Positions 5,460-59,185 of a DNA stretch of 64,000 nt are shown piece after piece. The number at the start of each line of letters is the position of its first letter. Position 1 is the stretch's first letter. The stretch covers positions 1-64,000 of the forward strand of contig JAVUPY010000029.1 of the NCBI GenBank assembly GCA_032252755.1, given 5' to 3'. Below the pieces are notes generated by a model, which was not told the DNA's origin, made no database searches, and saw only the letters and a list, made by a program, of their open reading frames with translations. The DNA comes from Terriglobia bacterium. Its GTDB lineage: Bacteria; Acidobacteriota; Terriglobia; Terriglobales; Acidobacteriaceae. The translations under genes were made by a program, and so were the position numbers.

Positions 5460-5498
5460 CACCCACCGTGTGTGAAGGTCCGGCCACCCGGCCGCCTT

Positions 5499-6065
5499 TT
5501 AAACCCGTAGTGCGCCGCGGAAGCCGCGGCCAGCGTAGTAGGATTCGGCGCCGTTATGGTAGGTGAAGACGGTGTCGTAGCGGCGATCGCAGAAGAGGGC
5601 GCCGCCGAGTTTCCGGACATTGGAAGGGGTCTTGATCCAGCTTGAGGTTTTGGTGTCGAATTCTCCGAGCTTCTCCAACTCGCGATATTGTTCTTCGGTC
5701 AGAAGTTCGACGCCCATTGCGGTGGCCACATCGACGGCGTTATTTGCCGGTTTGTGCTCCTTCCTTGCGTCGAGGGCTTCGCGGTCGTAGCAAAGGCTTC
5801 GACGGTCTTTGGGAGTCTCCGGGGAGCAGTCGTAGAAAATGTATTTGCCGGTCTTCTTGTCGTGACCAACGACATCGGGTTCGCCGCCGGTACGTTCCAT
5901 CTCGTGGAGTGACCACAGCTTTTCAGGGTTCGATTCGAGCCTCGACTGTACCTTGGCCCATTCAAGGCCCCTGTGGCGATTCATGTTCTTCTCGAAACGG
6001 GCTTTCAAAGTGGGGAGGAGTTCGTCGCGCTGTTTGGGGGACAAGTTTCTCTTACTAGCCTTCAT
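5499..6065 (-). CDS. DUF4256 family protein
   Basis: 188 residues matching DUF4256 along the whole length. Landmarks are LSPKQRDELLPTLKARFEKN at the N-terminus, LHEMERTGGEPDVVG, the YDCSPETPKDRRSLCYDREA block, then CDRRYDTVFTYHNGAESYY near the end. The family is widespread, cytoplasmic and uncharacterised. A purine-rich AGAGG lies upstream of the ATG. It is followed on the same strand by the hairpin at 5424-5459. Confidence 0.88.
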   Translation of the reverse strand: MKASKRNLSPKQRDELLPTLKARFEKNMNRHRGLEWAKVQSRLESNPEKLWSLHEMERTGGEPDVVGHDKKTGKYIFYDCSPETPKDRRSLCYDREALDARKEHKPANNAVDVATAMGVELLTEEQYRELEKLGEFDTKTSSWIKTPSNVRKLGGALFCDRRYDTVFTYHNGAESYYAGRGFRGALRV

Positions 6066-46231: not shown

Positions 46232-47694
46232 ATCCTGTTATTTTTACGATTTGCGGCTTTGGTCTGCCTCTCCGCCCTTATCCTCTCCAACAACACCGAT
46301 GCCGGTTCGTAATCTCGCCCCTCGCGTCTTGCCAGTTCGGCTTCGGTGGACACCAATTCACCTCGAAATGCCTTCGCGAGTACGGCTTGTGTCAGGTTCT
46401 CGGCCCGGGCAGTTGCAGCAGCAACTCGCTTCTCGATGGCATCAGCAAGTTTGAAGAGTGCCTCGACCCGGCGGACGATTTCGTCTTGCTCTTCGAAGGG
46501 AGGCAATGCGAACGGTTGGGCTTTGACTTTGGCCCCCGATATACCCTGTTGTCCGGCGGAAGAAACAGCCCCATCGGTAATCCGCTCTCGTGCGCCGGTA
46601 GAGCCGAAGAAGATTTCGGCATAAGACGGTAACACGAGCCCATGACCGAATCGCACTCGCATGAGTTTATCGGGGTACAACAACTCGCCACCTAGGTTAC
46701 GCACCTGTCCGCATACGCCGAGGAGGTCCAAGCTGCCGTTATAGCGTGTAAATAGAAGATCTCCTTCTCGAAGTCCGTATTCAGAAAACTTTTCCTTTGC
46801 CCGCAAATAGCGTCGATCTTCGAGACTGACGCTACCTGAGCGAACGGCACTTATGCGAAGAATTGGTCTCCCTGGAGGCTCTATCTCGGGCTTTGTCGAA
46901 ATGCCATTCTTGAGTTCGCTCAATATCGACCCGAAGGTGATCCAAATCCAGGAATCCGGTATCTCTGTCGGACCATCGATTTTCTTCAGGTCCAGTTTCT
47001 GATTAAGGTCAACATCCGGATGCTGCACTCTCCACTCTTCCGTCAGCTTCCCCGAACACGCCGCCGCCAAAACCGATTGACGAAAGTTTGCTAGAAGCTG
47101 TTTTGCTCGGCCAAGGTGATTTAGAGGTGATTTGGTCCTGGACGTCACCTCTTCTAGTGCTCTCGAGATGCGCCGCTGCTCTTCATACGGAGCAAATATG
47201 AACGGTATCTCCTTAGCTTTAGCACCGGAGATTTCAAGAAAAGTCGTGCCGCTACCCAGTTCTTGAAGATCATCGCGTTTATATTTCAACCAGAAATAGC
47301 AGTATTCCGGAACAATGCCGTTTGGTAGAACGAAGCTCTTAAATCCTTGACTCGTTGCAATCGGGTTCGCGGCAATCGCAACGTATCCGATTGGGGCGCG
47401 ACTCGACATCAGCACTGTTCCCGGTGGCATTGCCGTTGCGCCGCAGGATCGAAAGCCCTTTTCCGACAGCCCTCGTCTACCTCTCTTGATGTACATCCCC
47501 TCAAATCCGCTCAAGTCGGCAGGTGTTAGCCACGGTTGGCCATCTTCAGAAAAGTTGTCTGAAACTGACGTCTTTGGAGTTCCACCCCCAACAACATGCG
47601 AAACCTCGCCAATTTCGGCGGCAGCCCAACCCTCCGGCAAATCCGATTCGGCGGTGATTTCCTCTTCGCGCAGTAGTTGTGCCTTGGTGCTCAT
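46228..47694 (-). CDS. hsdS: Type I restriction-modification specificity subunit HsdS
   Basis: 488 residues with two target recognition domains. The first begins LPEGWAAAEIGEVSHVVGGG and includes VLMSSRAPIGYVAIAANPIA; the second begins IPDSWIWITFGSILSELKNG. Each is followed by a conserved coiled-coil spacer (APYEEQRRISRALEEVTSRT and LPPFEEQDEIVRRVEALFKL). This subunit sets the bipartite recognition sequence. Overlaps hsdM and the downstream nuclease gene by 4 bp each. Confidence 0.95.
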   Translation of the reverse strand: MSTKAQLLREEEITAESDLPEGWAAAEIGEVSHVVGGGTPKTSVSDNFSEDGQPWLTPADLSGFEGMYIKRGRRGLSEKGFRSCGATAMPPGTVLMSSRAPIGYVAIAANPIATSQGFKSFVLPNGIVPEYCYFWLKYKRDDLQELGSGTTFLEISGAKAKEIPFIFAPYEEQRRISRALEEVTSRTKSPLNHLGRAKQLLANFRQSVLAAACSGKLTEEWRVQHPDVDLNQKLDLKKIDGPTEIPDSWIWITFGSILSELKNGISTKPEIEPPGRPILRISAVRSGSVSLEDRRYLRAKEKFSEYGLREGDLLFTRYNGSLDLLGVCGQVRNLGGELLYPDKLMRVRFGHGLVLPSYAEIFFGSTGARERITDGAVSSAGQQGISGAKVKAQPFALPPFEEQDEIVRRVEALFKLADAIEKRVAAATARAENLTQAVLAKAFRGELVSTEAELARREGRDYEPASVLLERIRAERQTKAANRKNNRI

Positions 47695-49190
47695 GCCTTT
47701 TTGCCTGTCGCTGCAGGTTTAGCCGATTTGCCGTTCCCGTTCCCATTCGACTCCAGCATCGCCACGATCGCGTTCAACTCCTCGACCGCGGCTTTAAGCT
47801 CCGCGATCGCATCCGTCGCGAGTTCCTGCGGCTCAATATCCGGATCAAATTCGTCGAGCGACTCATCCTTCAGCCATTTCAGTCCGTCGATCTTGTAATC
47901 GCGCTCCTTCACTTCCGCGATAGAGAACGACCGCCACCGATCTTCCTTAGAGTCGCTCGCTTTCCGTTTCGATCGCCCATTCGGATCGCCGCCAAAACAC
48001 TTTTCGAATTCCGCAAAGTGCTCTTTCGTAAGCGGCCGGTCCTTCTTCGTGATCCGCGGCACGTTGCTTCGAGCGTCGTACACCCACACCGTTTCGGTCG
48101 GCGCACCTTTAGTGAAGAAAATCACGTTCGTTTTGGTACCGGGACTGTACGGGCTGAACGTGCCGTTCGGCAGCCGCAGCACCGTATGGAGCACGCAGTC
48201 CTTCATCAGGATCTCGAACACTTCTCCCGCCTGATCCGCGAAGAGGCAGTTGTCAGGCACCACGACGGCCGCGCGCCCTCCCTGCTTGAGAATCGTCAGC
48301 ACATGCTGCAGAAAGTTGAGCTGCTTGTTCGAGGTCTCAATCGTGAAATCATCCCGGTCCGGAACTTGGTTGGCACCCTTCGTCCCGAACGGGGGATTGG
48401 TCAACACCACGTCGAACCGCTGCGAGTCAGGAACTTCGTAAATAGAATCGCCACCTTTGATGACTGGCTCAAGCCCATGCAGGTATAGGTTCATCAGCGC
48501 GAGCCTCTTCGGCCGGGCGACCAACTCCTGCCCGTAATAAGTTCCCTTCTTGATCCTTTTTGCGAGCTCGCGGTCGAGCGCCCCGCCCTTCGTCTCCCCG
48601 ATGAACCATTCATATGCAGAGACCAAAAACCCGCCGCTCCCGCATGCCGGGTCGGAGATCGTAAATTCCTTGTGGCTCCTCGGGTCCGGCTTCACGCACC
48701 GCACGATCGACTGAATAAGGATGCGCGGCGTGAAGTACTGCCCCGCGCCCTTCTTCCCTTCACTCGCAGCCTTTTCCAGGAGCCCCTCAAATGCGGCTGC
48801 CTTCACGTCCACACCAAGCTGCGTCCATTCGGTCTCGTCGATGACGCCGAGCAGGGCCTTGAGGTTCACGGGATTGTTGAACCGCGACAACGCTCCTGCG
48901 AAAATCTCGCCCAGCAGCCCTTTCTGCTTTCCCAATGCCTGGAGAACCGAGACATAGTGCTCAGTCAGCGCCGTGCCCGACTTCGATTCGAGCGTTGGCC
49001 ACGAGCAATCGCACTCGACCTCTCTGCCGTTCCCGGCCACGTACTTCGTTTTCGAAAGGTCGATCCCGCGCTCATCGGCCATCTTCAAAAAGAGAAGGTA
49101 GGTGAGCTGCTCTATGTAATCACCGTAATCGATCCCGTCATGCCGAAGGGTATGACAGAAGCCCCACAGTTTCCCGACAACATCGCTCAT
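47691..49190 (-). CDS. hsdM: Type I restriction-modification methyltransferase HsdM
   Basis: 499 residues. HsdM N-terminal domain (LWGFCHTLRHDGIDYGDYIE), SAM-binding motif I DPACGSGGFLVSAYEW, and catalytic motif IV NPPFG of N6-adenine methyltransferases. The tail is charged and ends in a Lys/Ala-rich segment. Methylates the HsdS target and is needed for cleavage complexes. Coupled by 4-bp overlaps on both sides. Confidence 0.97.
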   Translation of the reverse strand: MSDVVGKLWGFCHTLRHDGIDYGDYIEQLTYLLFLKMADERGIDLSKTKYVAGNGREVECDCSWPTLESKSGTALTEHYVSVLQALGKQKGLLGEIFAGALSRFNNPVNLKALLGVIDETEWTQLGVDVKAAAFEGLLEKAASEGKKGAGQYFTPRILIQSIVRCVKPDPRSHKEFTISDPACGSGGFLVSAYEWFIGETKGGALDRELAKRIKKGTYYGQELVARPKRLALMNLYLHGLEPVIKGGDSIYEVPDSQRFDVVLTNPPFGTKGANQVPDRDDFTIETSNKQLNFLQHVLTILKQGGRAAVVVPDNCLFADQAGEVFEILMKDCVLHTVLRLPNGTFSPYSPGTKTNVIFFTKGAPTETVWVYDARSNVPRITKKDRPLTKEHFAEFEKCFGGDPNGRSKRKASDSKEDRWRSFSIAEVKERDYKIDGLKWLKDESLDEFDPDIEPQELATDAIAELKAAVEELNAIVAMLESNGNGNGKSAKPAATGKKA

Positions 49191-51895
49191 ATCGCAATAG
49201 CCTGATTAAAAGAATGGATAAGCTGCGGCAATTGGCCTGAGAAGACCCCGTTTGCCCGTCCCCACCCGCCAAAGCGCGTGAAGATCGGCAGGCTGTCAAA
49301 GTCCTCTTCATCAATGGACAGGTTCACGACGAGGTGCGTCTGTATGCGCTCCAGCCACTGCTGCTGTTCCGGCGTGAACGTTCTGCCTGACGTTACTGTA
49401 GCAAACGCGCGCTCGACCCGTTCGTTCGCGGTGAGCAGGGGACTTTGCTTGTCGGCGGCGTGCTTCACCATCGAGATGATGTCGGCGAGAGCCTTGTGAT
49501 ACTGGATCTCGTGCGCTTTCTGCAGGTTCTCAAGCGTGAATCGCTGCGGCGCTGCCCTTAGCTTGTCTCTAAGTTCCCCGATAGCAGCCGGACTCCAGTT
49601 CTCTGGACTCTGCTGCAAAATCCTGATCGCTTCAATGTGGTCCGGGTTCTCCTCGACGAATCGGGCAAACGCCGTGAGGTAATCTTCGGGCTTGTATTCC
49701 TTCCCATCCGCGCCGCGTGCCAGCCATTCCGATCTGACTGCATCCTTGTTTTCGTACGCGATAACGAAGGTGCGCTTGGCGCGGATGTAGTTCACCAGAA
49801 GATCTTGGAACTTCGGATCTCTCAGAAGCTTCATGGCTCCCGCGAAGTTCCGCTTCAGGTCCCCAGGCAAATCCTTTGCATACGCCCCGAGATCCCCGTC
49901 GGCAACCCAGGCCGCAAACTGTTCCCGCGCCTCTCCCGACATCTCCTTGTTGATGCGCTGCAGGCGCTTCACCAGGCACCGGACGTTGTAGTCGCGATCA
50001 TGGTTCTGCCAGATGTCCTCGATGACCTCGGCAATCGTCCGGGCCTCTTTCTCAAGGGGCTCCGCGGTGATGTCGGTCGCGTTCCTGAAATACTCGAAGA
50101 GAGACCCGCCGAAACAATCAAAGACCGTGAAATGCGACTTGTCCGGGAACTTATCACCCCTGCGGGTTCCTCGCCCCAGCATCTGCTCGAACAGGATGCG
50201 CGACTTCACCGGACGGAGGAATACGATGAATTCGAGATCAGGGATGTCTACGCCGGTGGAGAGCATGTCGACCGTGACCACAATCCCGGGCTCCGGCCGG
50301 TTCCGGAACTCCCGGATTCGCTGCAGGGGCCGGTCCACGGTTTTCGATCCTGTGATCTTCTGCACATATGAATCGCCCCGCCCATATACGTCCCTGGCGG
50401 TCTCGACCAATTGGTCGGCGTGCGAAGTGTGCGGCAGATCGTTTGCCGCGAAGATTAGCGTCTTCGGCAGACGTCCGTAGATCGCTTCGTGTTCCAGCGC
50501 GTACTTCTTCACTTCCTCGAGGATCTTGCGGTTGGAGTCGGGGGAGGTGACCTTCTCCTCGATCTCGGTGGTATCGAACTGCCGCTCGTCTTCCAGGAGA
50601 TCAAGCTGTTTCGTGCCGGTCTCCGCATTGACGATGCCAACTTCCTCGCCCTCCTTGAGAAATACGCCCTTCATCCGGACGTCAGATGAGACCGCCACGA
50701 CGTCGTAGGGCACGAGGAAGTCTTCCAGAACCGCGCGCTCGTACTCATACCGGAACACGACATCCTTAAAGAAAGAGGTTGTGTGCGATGCCGGGGTCGC
50801 GGTGAGGCCTACCTTGATCGCATCGAAGTGTTCCAGCGTCTGCCGCCAGACGGCCACTTGCTTTGCGGTGTACCCGCGGTGGCATTCGTCGGCGATGACG
50901 AGGTCGAAGGCATGGATCGGGATGTTCTTGATCTCGTCAGCATCCTCATCCGGAGCTTCGTCCTTGTCTCCGAGTACCGTCTCCCGCCCGAAAAGGTTGA
51001 TAGCCATCCGCTGGATGGTCGAGACGTACACGAACGCGTCGCCCGGCTTCGGCGCGGTGAGGTATGAATTCGGCAGGACTGTGGGATCGAATTTTTCGTC
51101 CTCACCGAAATCCTCTTTTTGGAATTTCTGGCTATATACCTGGTAGATCTTATTGAACTTAAGTCCGGGCTCCGGTTCGAATGATGCGAACGTCCGCACC
51201 GCCTGCGCCGCAAGCGCCCGCCGGTCGACGAGAAAGAGGATGCGTTTCGCGACGCCCGACTTCATCAACCGGTAGATCTCGTTCACGGTCATGAAGGTCT
51301 TGCCGGTGCCGGTCGCCATGGCGACGAGCATGTGTCGCTTTCGCTCTTCGATTGCATTTTCTATTGCGGTGTTCGCTTCGACTTGGTACGGCCGCGCCAG
51401 GATTCGCCGGTGATCGTTCGGCATCGCCCGGAGCACTGCAACTGATGCATCAAAATCCCGCTCCACGAATTCGGTGAGGGCATCGGGCGTGTGGAACTTC
51501 TTGATCTCTCGCGAGCGGCTCAGCTCGTTCCGAATGTCGTGGTACCAGATCACCTCGCCGTTGGTGGAAAAGAGAAACGGTACGCGGTAGCCGCGGAAAT
51601 CGAAGGGGCCCGCCATGAGGCCCCGAGAGTACCGTTCTGCCTGGGTTAGCACGTTCTGCGGTCCGAGGCTCAGTTTCTTCGCCTCGACAATGCCCACGAT
51701 GCGTCCGCCCATGCACAGGGCGTAGTCCGCAGGCCCCGCCTCAGTCGGATACTCTTCGATGGCGCAGCGTTCATATTTCGCAAGTGGCCGCTCCGCGTCG
51801 AATTTGGCGACAGTCCAGCCTGCCGCCTTCAACTTGGCGTCGATGATCTGCTTGCGAGTGACGTATTCGGATTTGGCCGGAGAGGTTTTGAACAT
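49187..51895 (-). CDS. hsdR: Type I restriction endonuclease subunit HsdR
   Basis: 902 residues. N-terminal nuclease domain with the PD-(D/E)XK pattern (AGPADYALCMGG, GIVEAKK), then a superfamily 2 translocase: Walker A MATGTGKTFMT (about 189), DECHRG box, LTATP motif III, and QMLGRGTRRGD motif VI. A helical C-terminal domain binds HsdM. It drives ATP-dependent DNA translocation and cleavage of unmodified DNA. All motifs are intact. First gene of the minus-strand operon. Confidence 0.96.
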   Translation of the reverse strand: MFKTSPAKSEYVTRKQIIDAKLKAAGWTVAKFDAERPLAKYERCAIEEYPTEAGPADYALCMGGRIVGIVEAKKLSLGPQNVLTQAERYSRGLMAGPFDFRGYRVPFLFSTNGEVIWYHDIRNELSRSREIKKFHTPDALTEFVERDFDASVAVLRAMPNDHRRILARPYQVEANTAIENAIEERKRHMLVAMATGTGKTFMTVNEIYRLMKSGVAKRILFLVDRRALAAQAVRTFASFEPEPGLKFNKIYQVYSQKFQKEDFGEDEKFDPTVLPNSYLTAPKPGDAFVYVSTIQRMAINLFGRETVLGDKDEAPDEDADEIKNIPIHAFDLVIADECHRGYTAKQVAVWRQTLEHFDAIKVGLTATPASHTTSFFKDVVFRYEYERAVLEDFLVPYDVVAVSSDVRMKGVFLKEGEEVGIVNAETGTKQLDLLEDERQFDTTEIEEKVTSPDSNRKILEEVKKYALEHEAIYGRLPKTLIFAANDLPHTSHADQLVETARDVYGRGDSYVQKITGSKTVDRPLQRIREFRNRPEPGIVVTVDMLSTGVDIPDLEFIVFLRPVKSRILFEQMLGRGTRRGDKFPDKSHFTVFDCFGGSLFEYFRNATDITAEPLEKEARTIAEVIEDIWQNHDRDYNVRCLVKRLQRINKEMSGEAREQFAAWVADGDLGAYAKDLPGDLKRNFAGAMKLLRDPKFQDLLVNYIRAKRTFVIAYENKDAVRSEWLARGADGKEYKPEDYLTAFARFVEENPDHIEAIRILQQSPENWSPAAIGELRDKLRAAPQRFTLENLQKAHEIQYHKALADIISMVKHAADKQSPLLTANERVERAFATVTSGRTFTPEQQQWLERIQTHLVVNLSIDEEDFDSLPIFTRFGGWGRANGVFSGQLPQLIHSFNQAIAI

Positions 51896-52139: not shown

Positions 52140-52330
52140 ACCCCCGAGAATTCATCCCACCCCCCGCCTGTCCTGTGTTATAAGCGATTTTTCTCCCCCC
52201 AATAGCTCGAACCCCGCGCCCGGCACGATTTTCGTACGCACGAACTGGTGCGCGAATAAGAACTTCTATGGATTCCTCTGCCCAATTGCACACTGATCAA
52301 TTACCCGCCGAAAACGTAACGGAGGAAATA

Positions 52331-55233
52331 ATGCGGCATCTGCCAATTGGTTCCCTTTGGCGCAAATGGGATCTGCATTTTCATACACCATCCTCATTCG
52401 ATTATGCCGATAAGAGCATCACCGATGAAAAGATCATAGACACGCTTGTAGAAGCTGGGATCGAGGTGGTTGCTGTCACCGACCATCACGTGATCGACAT
52501 TGCGCGAATTTCAAATCTCAGCACCATCGCTGCTGGCAGGATCTCAATTTTGCCCGGTATCGAATTCCGTACTGAGTTGGGCGGCAAACAGAAAGTCCAT
52601 TTGATCGGCATATTTCCGGAGAATGCAAAGCTGAAAGACATTTGGACGACGGTTCAAGGAAAGCTCGAACTCACTACTGGTCACATTGAGAAGAAGGGTG
52701 GCGACGAAAGTGTGTACGTCAACTTTCGGGAAGCGGCCGACGTTATTCATGATTTGGGCGGGATCGTATCCGTCCACGCCGGGACGAAGTCGAATACCAT
52801 AGAAACAATTGGCAATAAGGAACTTTTTAAACAGCGACTCAAGAAAGATCTAATCCGAGATTACATAGACCTGTATGAAATTGGGAAAGCATCAGACGTT
52901 ACGGACTATGAAGCTAAAGTATTCCCTAATATTGGTAAGCACATTCCGCTTGTCATTTGCTCAGATAACCACGACATAAAGAATTACGCCCTCAAGGCAT
53001 CATGCTGGATCAAGGGGGACCCGTGTTTCTGCTCCTTCCAGCAGATCAAGAGCGACCCGAATCGTGTTTTTATTGGAGACCTGCCTCCCGCAGTTGATCG
53101 AATCAAAAAGAATCCGACAAAGTACATCAAAGCAGTCCAATACAAAAAGCTTCCTGGCTCACCTTTGCCTGAGGAGTGGTTTTCAGGAACCGTGCAGATC
53201 AACCCGGGCTTGGTTGGAATCATTGGTAACAAGGGTAGTGGCAAAACGGCTCTAGCCGAAACAATTGGCTTGCTCGGTAACTGCGAACTGGAGAAGCATT
53301 TCTCATTTCTTAATGAGGCAAAGTTTAGGCAACCGAAAGGCAGCAAGGCCAAGCACTTCCAGGCTTCATTGGTTTGGGCAAATGATCACCAAGATATAAA
53401 GCTTCTGAGCGACTCTACCAATTCCTCCAACCCGGCCTCCATTTCATATATTCCCCAGAACTATCTAGAAACGATCTGCAATGAGGTGGTAAATCTGCCT
53501 GGCAGTCGTTTGATCTCGAGCTTAAGTCAGTAATCTTCTCCCATGTATCCGAGGCAAAAAGACTCGGCGCTGACTCTCTGGATCAGTTACTTGAATTCAA
53601 AACGCTGCCCGTCCTCAACAGGCTTGACCAACTCCGCACTGAACTGAGTGAAATCAATTCTGAAATTGCGACTCTAATGGAATTGAGTTCCGACGAGCAG
53701 CGCCAGCTCCTGCTAAATTTGGTTGCTTCAAAAGAAAGGGAATTGGCAGCTCACGACAAGAACAAACCGGAGGAGAAGAAGAAGCCAGACACAGACCCAG
53801 CGCAAAAAGCGCAAATGGACGCGATTTCGCAAGAGATCACCCAGAAGAACAGTCAACGGGATCAATTGCTAAAGCAATCCAAAGACGCAGAGGCGAAAAA
53901 GCGAGCTGCCACCCTGCGGGCGGCGATTGCTGATCGTGTACTCTCGAGCTTAACGAACTTTGAAGCACAGCATACAGCCTTTCTGGCTAGTGTCGCGAAC
54001 GATTGTGCGGAATTGGAAATTGATCCAAGGACCCTCGTCACAATCGATGTACATAAGGATTTCATCGAGGTGATTTCCAAAAACGCAAAGAAACTTGCGG
54101 AAGATCAAAATGCGATCGTGGCCGACCTCCTAAACCAGCAATTCGGTCTCAAACAAGCCGTCCAGGACCTCTCGAACAAACTCGATGCGTCAAATGGCGC
54201 CTTTCAAGCATACGTCGAGGCTCTGCGCGAGTGGCAAGAAACAAGAGATGCGATTCTCGGAACGGACGAGACTCCAGATAGCCTTAAGTACTTCGAAAAG
54301 AAGATAGTCGATCTGGATTCTCTGCCAACTAAACTCTCCGCCGCCCAACAGAATCGCGAAACGAAAGTACAGGAGATATTTGCACAGATATCTACCATGA
54401 TCTCGGCCTACAAGGAACTCTACGAACCCGTACAAAACTTCATAACCAACCACCCGCTTGCAAAAGACAAGTTCAAGCTTGAATTTGATGCCCGCATAAT
54501 TCCAATGGAGCTAAATCGACTCTTGGAGAAAGTTAATCAGGGGCGCAAGGGATCATTCTGCGGAGTGGAAGAAGGAAAGCTCAGGCTGAAGCAGCTTTCA
54601 GATGCTGCAGATTTTGGAACCGCGGATGGAGTGGTAAAGTTTGTAGACGCCCTGTTCGATCACTTCCAATACGACTACAGGTTTTCCCCCAAGACCGTTG
54701 CCGTGGTTCGGGACCAGCTTAAGGCGGGAAATGAAGTTGTTGACCTCCTGAATGCAATCTATGATTTGAAATACCTTTCACCCCGATATCAACTTCGCTG
54801 GTCGGGCAAAGACCTGGATGAATTGTCGCCAGGGGAAAAAGGCACCCTTCTCCTAATTTTCTATCTACTGATCGATAAGAGGGATATTCCCCTGATCATC
54901 GACCAGCCTGAAGAGAACTTAGACAATCAAACCGTATATAAGATTCTCGTACCTTGCCTAAGAGAGGCGCGAAAGAAGCGCCAAGTCGTAATAGTCACTC
55001 ACAACCCGAATCTTGCAATCGTCTGCGATGCCGATCAAATTATTCACTGCGCTATAGATAAAACTCAGAAGAACCGCATCACTTACACGACAGGCGCAAT
55101 CGAAAATGAGACCTTAAACCACCTCATCGTGGATGTCCTCGAAGGAACTCGTCCAGCATTTGACCATCGCGACGCAAAATACCAGGAGGACGAAGACGCT
55201 CTAGGAGCAGCGCATACGGCTGGGACAATTTGA
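52331..55233 (+). pseudogene. PHP-domain / SMC-type ATPase, split by a frameshift
   Basis: The first part starts at ATG 52331 with GGAGG 5 nt upstream. It has a PHP phosphoesterase domain (WDLHFHTPSSFD, VVAVTDHHVID, SVHAG, VICSDNHD), then Walker A GIIGNKGSGKTA (about 299). The frame stops at 53533. The second part, in a different frame from about 53512, continues with FSHVSEAKRLG, a coiled coil, the ABC signature LDELSPGEKGTLL, Walker B IPLIIDQPEENLDN and the H-loop VTHNPN. Restoring one T near 53510 joins them into one protein of about 967 residues. This PHP-ATPase layout is found in defence islands. It is either a mutation, an assembly error, or a recoding site. Confidence 0.8.
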
Positions 55234-55883: not shown

Positions 55884-57050
55884 ATGCCAAAAACACAACA
55901 AGCTACCGCCATGGATCTGAAGGAACAAATCGCCAATTTCAAGAAATGGCTCGAGAGTCACGGCGGTGATTCCGGCGAATGGCAGGAGGGAAGAAAGGAA
56001 CGACTAGCCTGGTATCGCGAACATCTGACACAACCTCGGATAGAAAAGCTCACCGAAGCGGAGTTTGCAACTCTCATCAAAAGTCTTTGGGCCGTAAATA
56101 TTTGGCACAACAAGGACTATAAGGTCGAAAAACTCATCTCTGATAACGGTCTCGACAAGATTAGGGTCGCGTTGAAGGACCTTCTGTTTGGAGCCTCTCC
56201 TATTCAGGATCGATGGGATGCTTTCAGGGGAAAGATCAAGGGTCTCGGGCCTTCCTCGTTAAGTGAGATCCTGACATTCTTCGACCCTCAACAGTACTCG
56301 CTCGTAAATTTGAAGCCATACGAGGTTCTTCCGCGAATTGGATACTCACTAGATTCTGTGTCCGATGGGAAGAGCTATCAGCAGGCTACCGACGAAATTG
56401 GGAAAGTGAAAACTCTACTGGTTGAGAATGGTCTGAAGGATGCCGACTTCCTGATCGCAGATTTCTTCATCGCGTACCTTTTCTATCAGGTGTTTCATCT
56501 TGAGGGCAAGCGAAGCACCGAACCTGTCGTCGCGCCTGCGCCGAAGGCGAGTGAAACGCCGGAATCTAATAGCGACAACATCTCGATTGCATCTCACGAG
56601 TCAGCCGAGGCGATCCTTTTGATGCTCGGCAACCTACTCGGGTATGACACGTACACACCCGATGCTAGCCGGACGTATGACGGGCAGAAGCTCGGGCAAA
56701 TCGCTACTCTCGACGATCTGCCCGCATTCTCAAGCGAAAAGGTCATGGATTCCGTTCGGAACATCGACGTTGTCTGGCTTAAGGATGAATGGCCGGAATA
56801 CTTCTTTGAAGTGGAGCACACGACCGGAGTTACGTCGGGGCTACTTCGCATCTATCAGGCGCATAAGCTGAGCACCAAGTTTTTTATCATCGGTCCAGCC
56901 GATGTTCTGAAGAAATATGAGAAGGAGGTTCAGAAATCGCCTTTCGCGTCTATCCAGCACAAGTACCGCTTTCGCTCGTATGACGAACTAAGGCAGATGT
57001 ACCTGTTGACTTCACGTTATCGGAAGATGTCTGACGAATTTCTCGGCTAG
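55884..57050 (+). CDS. Two-domain protein with C-terminal nuclease-like motif
   Basis: 388 residues. The N-terminal half (about 1-210) is helical: LKEQIANFKKWLESHGGDSG, LWAVNIWHNKDYKVEKLI, FRGKIKGLGPSSLSEILTFF; the GLGPSS motif resembles a helix-hairpin-helix DNA-binding turn. A disordered linker follows, then a PD-(D/E)XK-like domain: NIDVVWLKDEWPEYFFEVEH then TTGVTSGLLRIYQ (about 290-320), where the lysine is replaced by His. AAGGA precedes the ATG. It is 12 bp after the previous gene. Confidence 0.65.
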   Translation: MPKTQQATAMDLKEQIANFKKWLESHGGDSGEWQEGRKERLAWYREHLTQPRIEKLTEAEFATLIKSLWAVNIWHNKDYKVEKLISDNGLDKIRVALKDLLFGASPIQDRWDAFRGKIKGLGPSSLSEILTFFDPQQYSLVNLKPYEVLPRIGYSLDSVSDGKSYQQATDEIGKVKTLLVENGLKDADFLIADFFIAYLFYQVFHLEGKRSTEPVVAPAPKASETPESNSDNISIASHESAEAILLMLGNLLGYDTYTPDASRTYDGQKLGQIATLDDLPAFSSEKVMDSVRNIDVVWLKDEWPEYFFEVEHTTGVTSGLLRIYQAHKLSTKFFIIGPADVLKKYEKEVQKSPFASIQHKYRFRSYDELRQMYLLTSRYRKMSDEFLG

Positions 57051-57071: not shown

Positions 57072-57611
57072 ATGACCAAAGAGGAACGGTACGTCGTAAA
57101 TCCACTGGTTCGCTGGCTCAAGTGCCAGAAGGCAACGTGGCAAGTGTATAAGCCGTCGTATGGTACCTCGGCAACCGGCTGGGACATCGAAGCCAGGCGG
57201 AAGAATCAGGACTTACTCATTGAGGCCAAATACATTGATGGCGCATTTCTCGCCTCGTTCACCGGATTGGTCACTGCATCATTGGCAAACCGGCGGCAGC
57301 ACTTCATGATCCAGAAGTACCGGAGCTGGTGCCACCATGTGTGCTGGGCAATCGGCAGCGACCGACCACAGAATGACATCTTTCAAATCCTGTTTGACTA
57401 CATAGCGCGAAACCCAAAGTTCTGGAAACACTACGCTGAAGACGTTCGGATGAAGTACGTATTCTTCGTGCGAAGTGGGAGAGTTAGCAGGATTCCTTTC
57501 TCGCTCGTTCTGCACCTTGCGGAGCGCTACGCGCCTGAGGCCTCAAACAAAACACTTTTGGAACGGCGCAAAGTCGCTGGACACTTGATTCGCAACTTTC
57601 GCTTTTCCTGA
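57072..57611 (+). CDS. Small PD-(D/E)XK nuclease-like protein
   Basis: 179 residues. Core motif GTSATGWDIEARRKNQDLLI then EAKY (Asp about 38, Glu about 50, Lys about 52), the standard D...ExK metal site of this nuclease superfamily. The remainder is helical and basic. No other domain. It lies 21 bp after the preceding gene, without an obvious Shine-Dalgarno. Likely a DNA or RNA nuclease of the cluster. Confidence 0.7.
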   Translation: MTKEERYVVNPLVRWLKCQKATWQVYKPSYGTSATGWDIEARRKNQDLLIEAKYIDGAFLASFTGLVTASLANRRQHFMIQKYRSWCHHVCWAIGSDRPQNDIFQILFDYIARNPKFWKHYAEDVRMKYVFFVRSGRVSRIPFSLVLHLAERYAPEASNKTLLERRKVAGHLIRNFRFS

Positions 57612-57622
57612 CCTACCTGCGT

Positions 57623-58126
57623 ATGGATAAATCCGACTACATCCGACTCCGCGACCGGTTCACTCCCGAGAATCCAACTGTGATCTTCATTCTCGAATCC
57701 CCGCCCGCATCGGGATTGTATTTCTACAACCCCGATGGCAAGACGACGGAGCCGCTATTCAAAGCAATGATGAAAGATGTTCTCGGGAAATTCCCAAGCA
57801 CGAAAGAGGAGGGTCTGCAGGACTTCGCAGCCAAAGGCTACCTCATCATCGACGCGACCTACACACCGGTGAACAACCTCGGCGACCCCGAAGCCGACGC
57901 GATCATCGTCCGCGACTTCCTTCAGCTCCTGGAAGAGTTGCGCGCACACGCGCAACCCAGCACGAAGATAGTTCTCGTCAAAACTAACATCTGCAGACTG
58001 CTCGAAAAACGATTGGATGAAGAAGGTTTCAGGGTCCTCAACGGGGGCGTCACCATCCCGTTTCCCAGCACCGGCCAACAATCGAAGTTCAGAGAAAAGA
58101 TCCAGAGAGTGCTCTGGGATACCTGA
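57623..58126 (+). CDS. 'ESPP' protein, unknown, possibly uracil-DNA-glycosylase-like fold
   Basis: 167 residues. N-terminal core NPTVIFILESPPASGLYFYN, a middle acidic/aliphatic strand KGYLIIDATYTPVNNLGDPE, and KIVLVKTNICRLLEKRLDEE near the end. The alternation of hydrophobic strands with helices and the early ESPP turn recall UDG-superfamily proteins, but the usual catalytic motifs are not clear, so function is open. 11 bp after the nuclease gene and 75 bp before the tRNA-like gene. Confidence 0.5.
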   Translation: MDKSDYIRLRDRFTPENPTVIFILESPPASGLYFYNPDGKTTEPLFKAMMKDVLGKFPSTKEEGLQDFAAKGYLIIDATYTPVNNLGDPEADAIIVRDFLQLLEELRAHAQPSTKIVLVKTNICRLLEKRLDEEGFRVLNGGVTIPFPSTGQQSKFREKIQRVLWDT

Positions 58127-58200: not shown

Positions 58201-58310
58201 GGCGGTATGGCGGAATTGGCAGACGCGACGGCTTCTGGAGCAATCGAGTGTCTCGGTTTCTCCACAAGCCGTTGCCTTCGGGCGTGAGGGTTCGATCCCC
58301 TCTACCGCTA
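58201..58310 (+). tRNA. tRNA-Leu-like gene with 45-nt hairpin in place of the anticodon arm
   Basis: Acceptor GGCGGTA (58201-58207) pairs with TACCGCT (58303-58309; first pair G.U). The D arm GCG..CGC has GGAATTGGCAGACGC as in tRNA-Leu, the variable arm is TGCC-TTCG-GGCG, and the T arm is GAGGG-TTCGATC-CCCTC. The anticodon stem ACGGC/GCCGT is present, but 35 nt instead of 7 separate its strands. That insert folds on: ACGGCTT/AAGCCGT, a C/C mismatch, TGGAG/CTCCA, a C/T mismatch, AATCGAG/CTCGGTT, loop TGT. No ordinary anticodon is displayed. CCA is not encoded. TACTAT (58188) is a possible -10. Whether an intron is removed is unknown. Confidence 0.7.
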
Positions 58311-58502: not shown

Positions 58503-58645
58503 CTGCCTCTTCAAAAATCCTAGGATTGTAAGCTTTCCAGCAAAACTCATTTTTCCGGAGTGTGCGCTCGGTTAGGGCAATTCACCTGCCAACTATTTAT
58601 TTTTATTTTTGCTTTCTCCAGGTGCCTCGCCACGGAATAATAAGT

Positions 58646-59185
58646 ATGAGAGAAAAGATCCATAGAACGCTCGGCTTGCTAGTCTCCTCACTATTTCATG
58701 TTCCACCAAACTTTCACGTTATCTCTGCGCCGGAATGCGGGGGTAGTCACAGGCTCCAGCTGTTCACTACGCCCTACAAGTCGCGATCTACTAGTTACTG
58801 CTGGCCAGACTTGGCCATTTCGCAAGGTGGAGAAATTCGCCTCATCCTTGAAATAGAGGAAGCGGCGGTAACTCCCGCCAAGATCGGGAGCAAACTGTTA
58901 CCAGTGTCGCCATCCAGATACCTGTGCTGCGAAGGGACCGACCAGAATCAGTTCCCAATCAGCTCCGGGATAACACTCATTCAGGTGGTCAATATAGCTT
59001 CATTGAAACCCGCGACACGAAAGATGGTTCAATACGAAAATCTGGAAGCGGATATTCGACGGCTCTTGCCCATTGGCTGTGTCGCTCAATATTTCCTATT
59101 CCCTATTCTCGCGGCTAATGCTCTGCCAGTTGAAACGGAGAAGTACAACAATTTACTAAATGCGATCGATCGCATATTGGTTTGA
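58646..59185 (+). CDS. Nuclease-like protein with PD...ExE motif
   Basis: About 179 residues from ATG 58646 (MREKIHRTLGLLVSSLF). Central block YCWPDLAISQGGEIRLILEI then EEAAVTPAKIGSKLLP resembles PD-(D/E)XK enzymes, with Asp in PDLA and an EIE in the metal position. A helical end follows. No Shine-Dalgarno is clear, and codon use and AT content differ from the chromosome, as in other island genes. Followed by a good terminator. Confidence 0.55.
   Translation: MREKIHRTLGLLVSSLFHVPPNFHVISAPECGGSHRLQLFTTPYKSRSTSYCWPDLAISQGGEIRLILEIEEAAVTPAKIGSKLLPVSPSRYLCCEGTDQNQFPISSGITLIQVVNIASLKPATRKMVQYENLEADIRRLLPIGCVAQYFLFPILAANALPVETEKYNNLLNAIDRILV

Follow-up and report, generated by a model that had tools for sequence, protein, structure and literature searches.

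The window, by which we mean the whole stretch of 64,000 nucleotides analysed here, contains a tRNA-Leu-like gene in which a single long hairpin takes the place of the anticodon arm (Table 1). The gene is located between defence-type genes on one side and a mobile-element module on the other, the latter comprising Replic_Relax, a weak RuvC match, two tyrosine integrases and a TraG/TrwB-like ATPase downstream of the RNA. In the preliminary description the RNA was said to lie beside nuclease-type genes. This is correct for the island, which includes HsdM/HsdR, TrlF and REase_II, but is not borne out for the direct neighbours: a Pfam scan of the nearest genes (57072-57611, 57623-58126 and 58562-59185) gave zero family matches; solved-structure searches also returned nothing useful. 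A sigma-70-type promoter was not seen at the window copy.

Table 1. Features at and around the tRNA-Leu-like gene, in positions of the window
Feature	Position	Strand	Basis and remarks
HsdM and HsdR, type I restriction-modification	47691-51895	-	Pfam
TrlF-family PHP/AAA gene, split in two ORFs	52268-55233	+	NCBIfam NF045780; ORFs 52268-53533 and 53677-55233 match profile 2-411 and 467-944 of 944
Gene with REase_II match	55884-57050		E 5.7e-6
Upstream neighbour gene, 167 aa	57623-58126	+	no Pfam match; no useful solved structure
24-nt direct repeat (88%)	58091-58114, 58649-58672		end of the upstream gene; within the ORF that follows the RNA gene
tRNA-Leu-like gene with hairpin anticodon arm	58201-58310	+	110 nt; Rfam RF00005, 42.5 bits; covariance models R1, R2
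Acceptor stem, 5' strand	58201-58207	+	7 bp with 58303-58309, one G-U; sequence and model alignment
D arm, 3-bp stem	58210-58226	+	D region same as host tRNA-Leu(CAG)
Anticodon arm, single hairpin	58228-58272	+	folding, shuffles, covariation among relatives
Basal arm helix	58228-58234/58266-58272	+	7 bp; then C58235.C58265 mismatch
CTT of conserved CUU/AAG hairpin base	58232-58234	+	partner AAG 58266-58268
Middle arm helix	58236-58240/58260-58264	+	5 bp; then C58241.T58259 mismatch
Apical arm helix	58242-58248/58252-58258	+	7 bp; loop TGT 58249-58251
Class II variable arm	58274-58283	+	3 bp, TTCG loop (GCC-UUCG-GGC)
T arm	58286-58302	+	5 bp, TTCGATC loop
Discriminator A73	58310	+	sequence
Perfect 15-bp inverted repeat	58467-58481/58488-58502		6-nt loop; ~160 nt past the RNA gene; no T run after; single within window

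A tRNA-Leu body with a hairpin in place of the decoding loop

The Leu-like body that had been recognised from the sequence is supported. In an Rfam scan the tRNA family RF00005 is the sole one above threshold in the window. The match leaves 31 nt unmodelled within the anticodon loop, and the paired acceptor, D, variable and T arms are all present. The leucine-identity nucleotides, as listed in part of PMC9976931 and including A73, are also in place. On the other hand, a decoding arm, with its 5-bp stem and a 7-nt loop that carries a Leu anticodon, is absent, ARAGORN makes zero tRNA calls across the whole window, and CCA is not encoded, CAA being found directly after A73.

The arm follows the order 7 bp, C/C, 5 bp, C/T, 7 bp and loop UGU, exactly and at the very coordinates that the preliminary description had given, and it folds as one hairpin with no decoding loop left, as had also been claimed. 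The minimum free energy of 58226-58274 is -29.1 kcal/mol vs -11.6 (sd 2.7) for dinucleotide shuffles (n=200), none of which is that low; shuffling only the insert inside the fixed stem gives a z of -4.6, with 0/1000 equally low. Random 35-nt segments of the window, placed in this 6-bp stem, reach so low an energy in 100 of 20000 trials and form a single hairpin of at least 20 bp in 36 of 20000. Taken alone, the window arm thus has a chance of ~1/200 to 1/550, which is suggestive and not conclusive. The recurrence of the design at 11 further loci, described below, makes the observation secure, and the earlier view that such symmetry exceeds chance is upheld by the shuffle tests and this recurrence together.

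The host genome (5.39 Mb in 96 contigs) gives 50 tRNA matches, the window copy included. Its tRNA-Leu genes with CAG, CAA, TAA, TAG and GAG anticodons show normal 7-nt loops and encoded CCA; since all five normal tRNA-Leu are present, the window gene is an extra one. Several origins were considered and rejected. The gene is not a dispersed repeat element, having no second site in its own genome at E 0.001, and its 3' tRNA end is not duplicated as an attachment site, no second copy with up to 3 mismatches being found within the window. A recent copy of a host tRNA-Leu was also discarded: the D region is that of tRNA-Leu(CAG), yet the acceptor and the arm differ.

Relatives and conservation of the arm

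Relatives were sought with a pattern consisting of a tRNA-Leu D arm and T arm spaced too far apart, in which some D- and T-loop letters were fixed and U8, A14, U48 and A73 were left free. The scans retrieved at least 120 loci in viral contigs and at least 119 in genome contigs. From the 239 listed loci 236 were scored, with a filter of acceptor pairing of at least 6/7 and T-stem pairing of at least 4/5, and 185 of the listed loci passed (102 viral and 83 genomic); L247, with one T-loop base fewer, failed and was retained on its covariance-model match. Model R1 was built from the window gene alone and R2 from the family, the latter being applied to 200 of the 239 listed loci. A Pedobacter-type group (38 of the 83 passing genomic loci) was excluded from fold inspection, and L251, L257, L192 and L141 were set apart because their insert leaves normal stem and loop ends. 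At least six listed genomic loci carry a window-like arm, membership being judged by eye from the folds: L304 (Chlorobaculum), L247 (Methylorubrum podarium), L262 (Amylibacter bin), L269 (Methylopila bin), L245 (Acidobacteriaceae bin) and L283 (Polyangiaceae bin).

Later searches (four taxon scans and a plasmid blastn) ignored the arm. The pattern matched 3 of 385 genomes in the class of L262's genome, namely the seed, L375 and one artefact formed by a normal tRNA-Leu and a distant T-arm-like word. In the class of L304's genome 8 of 98 matched; the seed, L387 and L394 are of the hairpin-arm type, L389 is of another type and the remaining four are devoid of a tRNA-Leu-like body. Eleven of 149 genomes matched in the family of L247's genome, with the seed as the only hairpin-arm type. 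A blastn search of plasmids with L375 and L247 as queries led to L442, on the Komagataeibacter nataicola plasmid pKNA06, and to L439, on a Methylobacterium fujisawaense plasmid; the long hairpin is present in each. Among 396 genomes of the host phylum the pattern was found in 16 genomes at 18 places, the window copy being the sole hairpin-arm type, and the other matches listed for R1 in these genomes have normal tRNA length (~81-87 nt by coordinates).

In total 12 hairpin-arm loci of 109-119 nt are known, the window and 11 others, the relatives spanning Chlorobi, Alphaproteobacteria, an Acidobacteriaceae bin and a Polyangiaceae bin. Five of them (L375, L387, L394, L439 and L442) were found regardless of the arm, and the non-seed bodies longer than 100 nt from the arm-blind genome searches have a long arm in 3 of 4 cases. 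The preliminary description had named homologues with a normal 7-nt loop and a random insert, or a lack of conserved pairing, as evidence against it. It withstands this check: the relatives hold their pairing by double changes and are without such a loop. The occurrence is thin and scattered (1/396, 2/385, 1/149 and 3/98 genomes), as expected for mobile DNA. No relative of the window arm itself was found in the viral contigs, where a CTTGCC-type arm gave 13 matches and none with a tRNA body. Blast of the window gene against plasmids (156 records) and phages (270 records) gave none covering 80% of the query, and L443, one of the blast records for the window gene, has no R2 match; L394 gave zero blast matches against plasmids.

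By R2 score alone the family cannot be told from normal tRNA-Leu: L442 (72.8 bits) falls below L141 (75.7), of another type, and below some normal tRNA-Leu such as L325 (74.2). Arm fold and length are what decide. At the Rfam gathering threshold the window, L262 and L304 are reported as plain tRNA and nothing is reported at L245, L247, L269 and L283, while ARAGORN found no tRNA at the six other copies tried, nor at the two plasmid copies. Thus, standard tools miss the hairpin-arm design. Normal-length tRNA-Leu matches are present in all six of the other long-arm genomes checked.

The examination of compensatory changes, proposed at the outset as a check, shows that the relatives hold the arm pairing by double changes. 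When the five arm-blind finds are aligned to R1, 91.2% of the arm-helix cells are paired and changes on both sides occur in 15 of the 19 pairs. For the whole structure of these five, 95.0% of the cells are paired, compared with 36.4-44.4% when the partner is displaced by 1-3 columns; 0/500 shuffles attain the observed value. All 12 members under R2 show 90.9% pairing in the arm helix and double changes in 17/19 pairs. Both alignments are model-fitted, and in distant members the apical parts may correspond by analogy and not by letter-for-letter homology. At its base the hairpin is near-invariant, with CUU/AAG at tRNA positions 31-33/37-39 (C-G in 11/12, U-A in 11/12 and U-A in 12/12), and CUUGCC is found there in seven of the 12, the six alphaproteobacterial members and L394. 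U8, A14, A15, G18, G19, A20a, U48, U54, U55, C56 and A58 are present in all 12 members and A73 in 11, L245 having G73. The arms folded for ten members contain 17-21 bp, and nine of the ten tested are more stable than their shuffles (z -2.4 to -6.6), the exception being L394 (z -0.9). Selection on the hairpin-arm structure is supported by these sequence comparisons, and the RNA looks like a real, recurrent and selected kind of tRNA-like RNA.

Neighbouring genes and related RNA types

No neighbour is constant across the hairpin-arm loci. L394 adjoins HsdR with an integrase ~4 kb off, a DUF3800 gene follows L375, L387 is beside a NYN + OST-HTH gene, L245 has a PIN_12 gene nearby and L247 a PIN match below threshold. 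The neighbours of L262 include genes of core type and one that matches no Pfam family, and those of L269, L283 and L304 allowed no assignment. Two candidate partners were discarded. DUF3800 was found in 4 of 289 genomes, and the three non-seed loci (3.7-3.9 kb examined) are without the RNA; the 57623-58126 gene was found in 3 of 61 genomes, its own included, and the other two loci, L075 and L076 (3.3-3.4 kb examined), are also without it. We regard the link between the hairpin-arm RNA and defence genes as a lead.

The hairpin-arm RNA shares with bacterial tRNA-Leu (RF00005) the acceptor, D, variable and T arms, A73 and the leucine-identity nucleotides, but the latter has a 5-bp anticodon stem and a 7-nt loop whereas the hairpin has ~20 bp and no anticodon. 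Natural anticodon stems have 5 bp, with 6 in named exceptions, according to passages of PMC7609411; among those, tRNA-Pyl and mitochondrial tRNA-Ser(UCN) also have a lengthened stem, but of 6 bp and with an anticodon loop. The "long anticodon stems" in the relevant passage of PMC6582537 are of four base pairs. Allo-tRNA and selC* tRNA-Cys are unusual tRNA genes too, the former also occurring in Acidobacteria; as set out in part of PMC7609411, these are decoding tRNAs that depart in their acceptor domain (12 bp, as 8/4 or 9/3), whereas the hairpin-arm RNA is 7/5. An allo-tRNA or tRNA-Sec type was therefore rejected, since it needs a 12-13-bp acceptor plus T domain and the window gene has 7 + 5 bp. 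tmRNA (RF00023) is likewise a tRNA-like RNA without anticodon decoding, from which the window RNA differs by its D arm; it was also rejected, with no RF00023 match in the window and no tag reading frame found by ARAGORN. Phage tRNAs evading tRNA-cutting defence, described in part of PMC11555353, are similarly mobile and linked to conflict, but they decode, while the hairpin-arm RNA is without a free anticodon. No description of such an RNA was recognised among the open-access papers searched, a scope outside which most subscription papers and all preprints lie.

The searches also returned other tRNA-Leu-like types. In the viral contigs (L107-L226, e.g. L145:2005-2128, L193:3196-3321 and L112:5194-5293) a paired tRNA-Leu-like body is present in 102 of the 120 listed loci, usually without a normal anticodon arm, and ARAGORN calls one of these 102. 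The listed viral bodies have A14 in 102/102, U48 in 100/102 and A73 in 71/102, and their 3' end is CAA in 39, CTA in 20 and CCA in 9 of the 102. Many of them allow two crossing helices in similar placement, only moderately above shuffles (mean z 0.92, 16/96 above 2). A phage-type example blasted against phage records gave 4 records with 22% of the query. In L112 a tmRNA match (5468-5866, reverse strand, RF00023, 63.1 bits) adjoins the viral tRNA-Leu-like gene.

Another type, of ~126-127 nt, is represented by L264, L389, L229, L172 and L197, from Chlorobi, a Terriglobia bin and viral contigs; the L264/L389-type shares the words CTCGTTG near the middle and GAAACACGTAT ahead of the T arm. The Pedobacter-type group (38 listed genomic loci, mostly Pedobacter, such as L232, L241 and L242) has a conserved tRNA-Leu-like body with G73 in 38/38, a TTGTCTC-like loop and a long variable region, and the viral L120, L196 and L212 look alike. 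A normal anticodon stem with a hairpin insert is seen at L251:138-247 (-) and L257:6074-6183 (+) of Planctomycetota and at the viral L192:3275-3403 (-) and L141:6617-6730 (+), inserts that may be small introns of tRNA genes in bacteria and viruses. Finally, L441:1300-3271, on the Bosea plasmid pANAM02, has nine tRNA genes in a row beside an annotated RNA ligase family protein.

Proposed role and alternative explanations

We propose, with a probability of about one half, that the hairpin-arm RNA is a non-decoding tRNA-Leu mimic carried on mobile, defence-rich DNA. Carriage on such DNA is supported by the two plasmid copies, by L394 with HsdR and an integrase, by the integrase/TraG region of the window and by the scattered occurrence. 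In this mechanism the RNA would be transcribed, trimmed and given CCA, and would fold into an L shape in which the anticodon limb is a long rod. With no loop free, codon reading should be impossible. In E. coli, A73 and the D/T-loop contacts are required by LeuRS and the anticodon is not, tRNA-Leu lacking both the anticodon arm and the variable arm is still active, and the anticodon arm has a role in editing and none in charging, as reported in passages of PMC9976931. Because leucylation in E. coli is thus independent of the anticodon arm, the hairpin-arm RNA, with its kept identity nucleotides, should still bind LeuRS and perhaps be charged by it. The RNA might then occupy an enzyme acting on tRNA-Leu without feeding the ribosome, which is the weakest step of the proposal; candidates are LeuRS itself or a tRNA-directed nuclease or modifier in a host-element conflict. 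The conserved CUU/AAG base may represent an added protein-binding handle. Among the roles considered, judging from the sequence, the RNA is probably a decoy, a titrator or a leucine acceptor, and repurposed structural RNA fits best among the options offered in the preliminary description.

In one special case the mimic would act as decoy or guard for a single tRNA-targeting enzyme of a defence or toxin system. Such an enzyme would recognise the tRNA-Leu body but be unable to cut the double-stranded anticodon region, and loss or occupation of the RNA would free or block a nuclease, perhaps encoded nearby in the manner of a type III-like antitoxin. A decoy or sensor had already been suggested for this RNA and is possible, given the nuclease-type genes near several copies (HsdR/TrlF at the window, HsdR, NYN + OST-HTH and PIN_12 at other loci, together with the sub-threshold PIN match and DUF3800) and the phage tRNAs that counter tRNA-cutting defences in part of PMC11555353. 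We nevertheless give the one-enzyme decoy a minor place, as these genes differ per locus and the DUF3800 homologues lack the RNA in 3/3 other loci; furthermore, in the retron-Eco7 work covered in that part of PMC11555353, changes in the anticodon or stem-loop of the phage tRNA-Tyr abolish rescue, so that it is no decoy there. The other special case, a dedicated leucine donor charged by LeuRS, barred from the ribosome and feeding a non-ribosomal aminoacyl transferase, would agree with the kept LeuRS identity nucleotides and with charging that needs no anticodon arm (passages of PMC9976931), but it is doubtful, since no aminoacyl transferase was recognised in the Pfam scan of the neighbours.

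A further explanation is a decayed or accidental tRNA copy bearing a neutral palindromic insert. It would fit the search of 396 genomes of the host phylum, which gave the window gene no orthologue, and the odds that one gene acquires such an arm by chance are not negligible; with all the stems intact, and with the same arm design and double-sided changes in other phyla, we consider it unlikely. If the extra 28 nt were an intron, splicing would yield a decoding tRNA-Leu, as the separate set L251, L257, L192 and L141 might illustrate, where removal of the insert gives CAA or TAA. The Lak megaphage tRNA introns described in part of PMC6784885 also place extra sequence in tRNA genes of mobile DNA. 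Unlike those, excision fails to restore a Leu anticodon after U33 in 8 of the nine members tested, the exception being L245, with L283, L439 and L442 outside the test; for the window copy CAC, CTC and CTG are the sole possible outcomes, and the host already has all five tRNA-Leu. The insertion option of the preliminary description, when read as a removable intron, is consequently disfavoured and very improbable; no group I or II intron family match was found above the Rfam threshold in the window. The least probable explanation is an RNA that works through its rod, which would be a double-stranded substrate (e.g. of RNase III) or act as a scaffold, while the tRNA ends would serve for processing only. 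The 17-21 bp of the ten folded arms and the conserved sequence of their base would suit this explanation, which leaves the kept A73 and the other leucine-identity nucleotides unexplained.

Returning to the non-decoding mimic, we tentatively extend it to a broad class of tRNA-Leu look-alikes on mobile DNA, with either a rod, as in the window type, or a pseudoknot-like fold, as in many viral contigs. The leucine-acceptor body would be kept in both, and the RNAs would be bound or charged by the host LeuRS and never translate; the odds of this extension are somewhat against it. If true, the look-alike class would be a new way to handle the leucyl-tRNA system of the cell in genome conflict. The hairpin-arm RNA can serve to test the idea of a tRNA mimic on mobile DNA that does not decode and may be chargeable. 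Its conserved hairpin of ~20 bp, carried by a tRNA-Leu that is complete in all other respects, amounts to a natural experiment on the roles of tRNA besides decoding.
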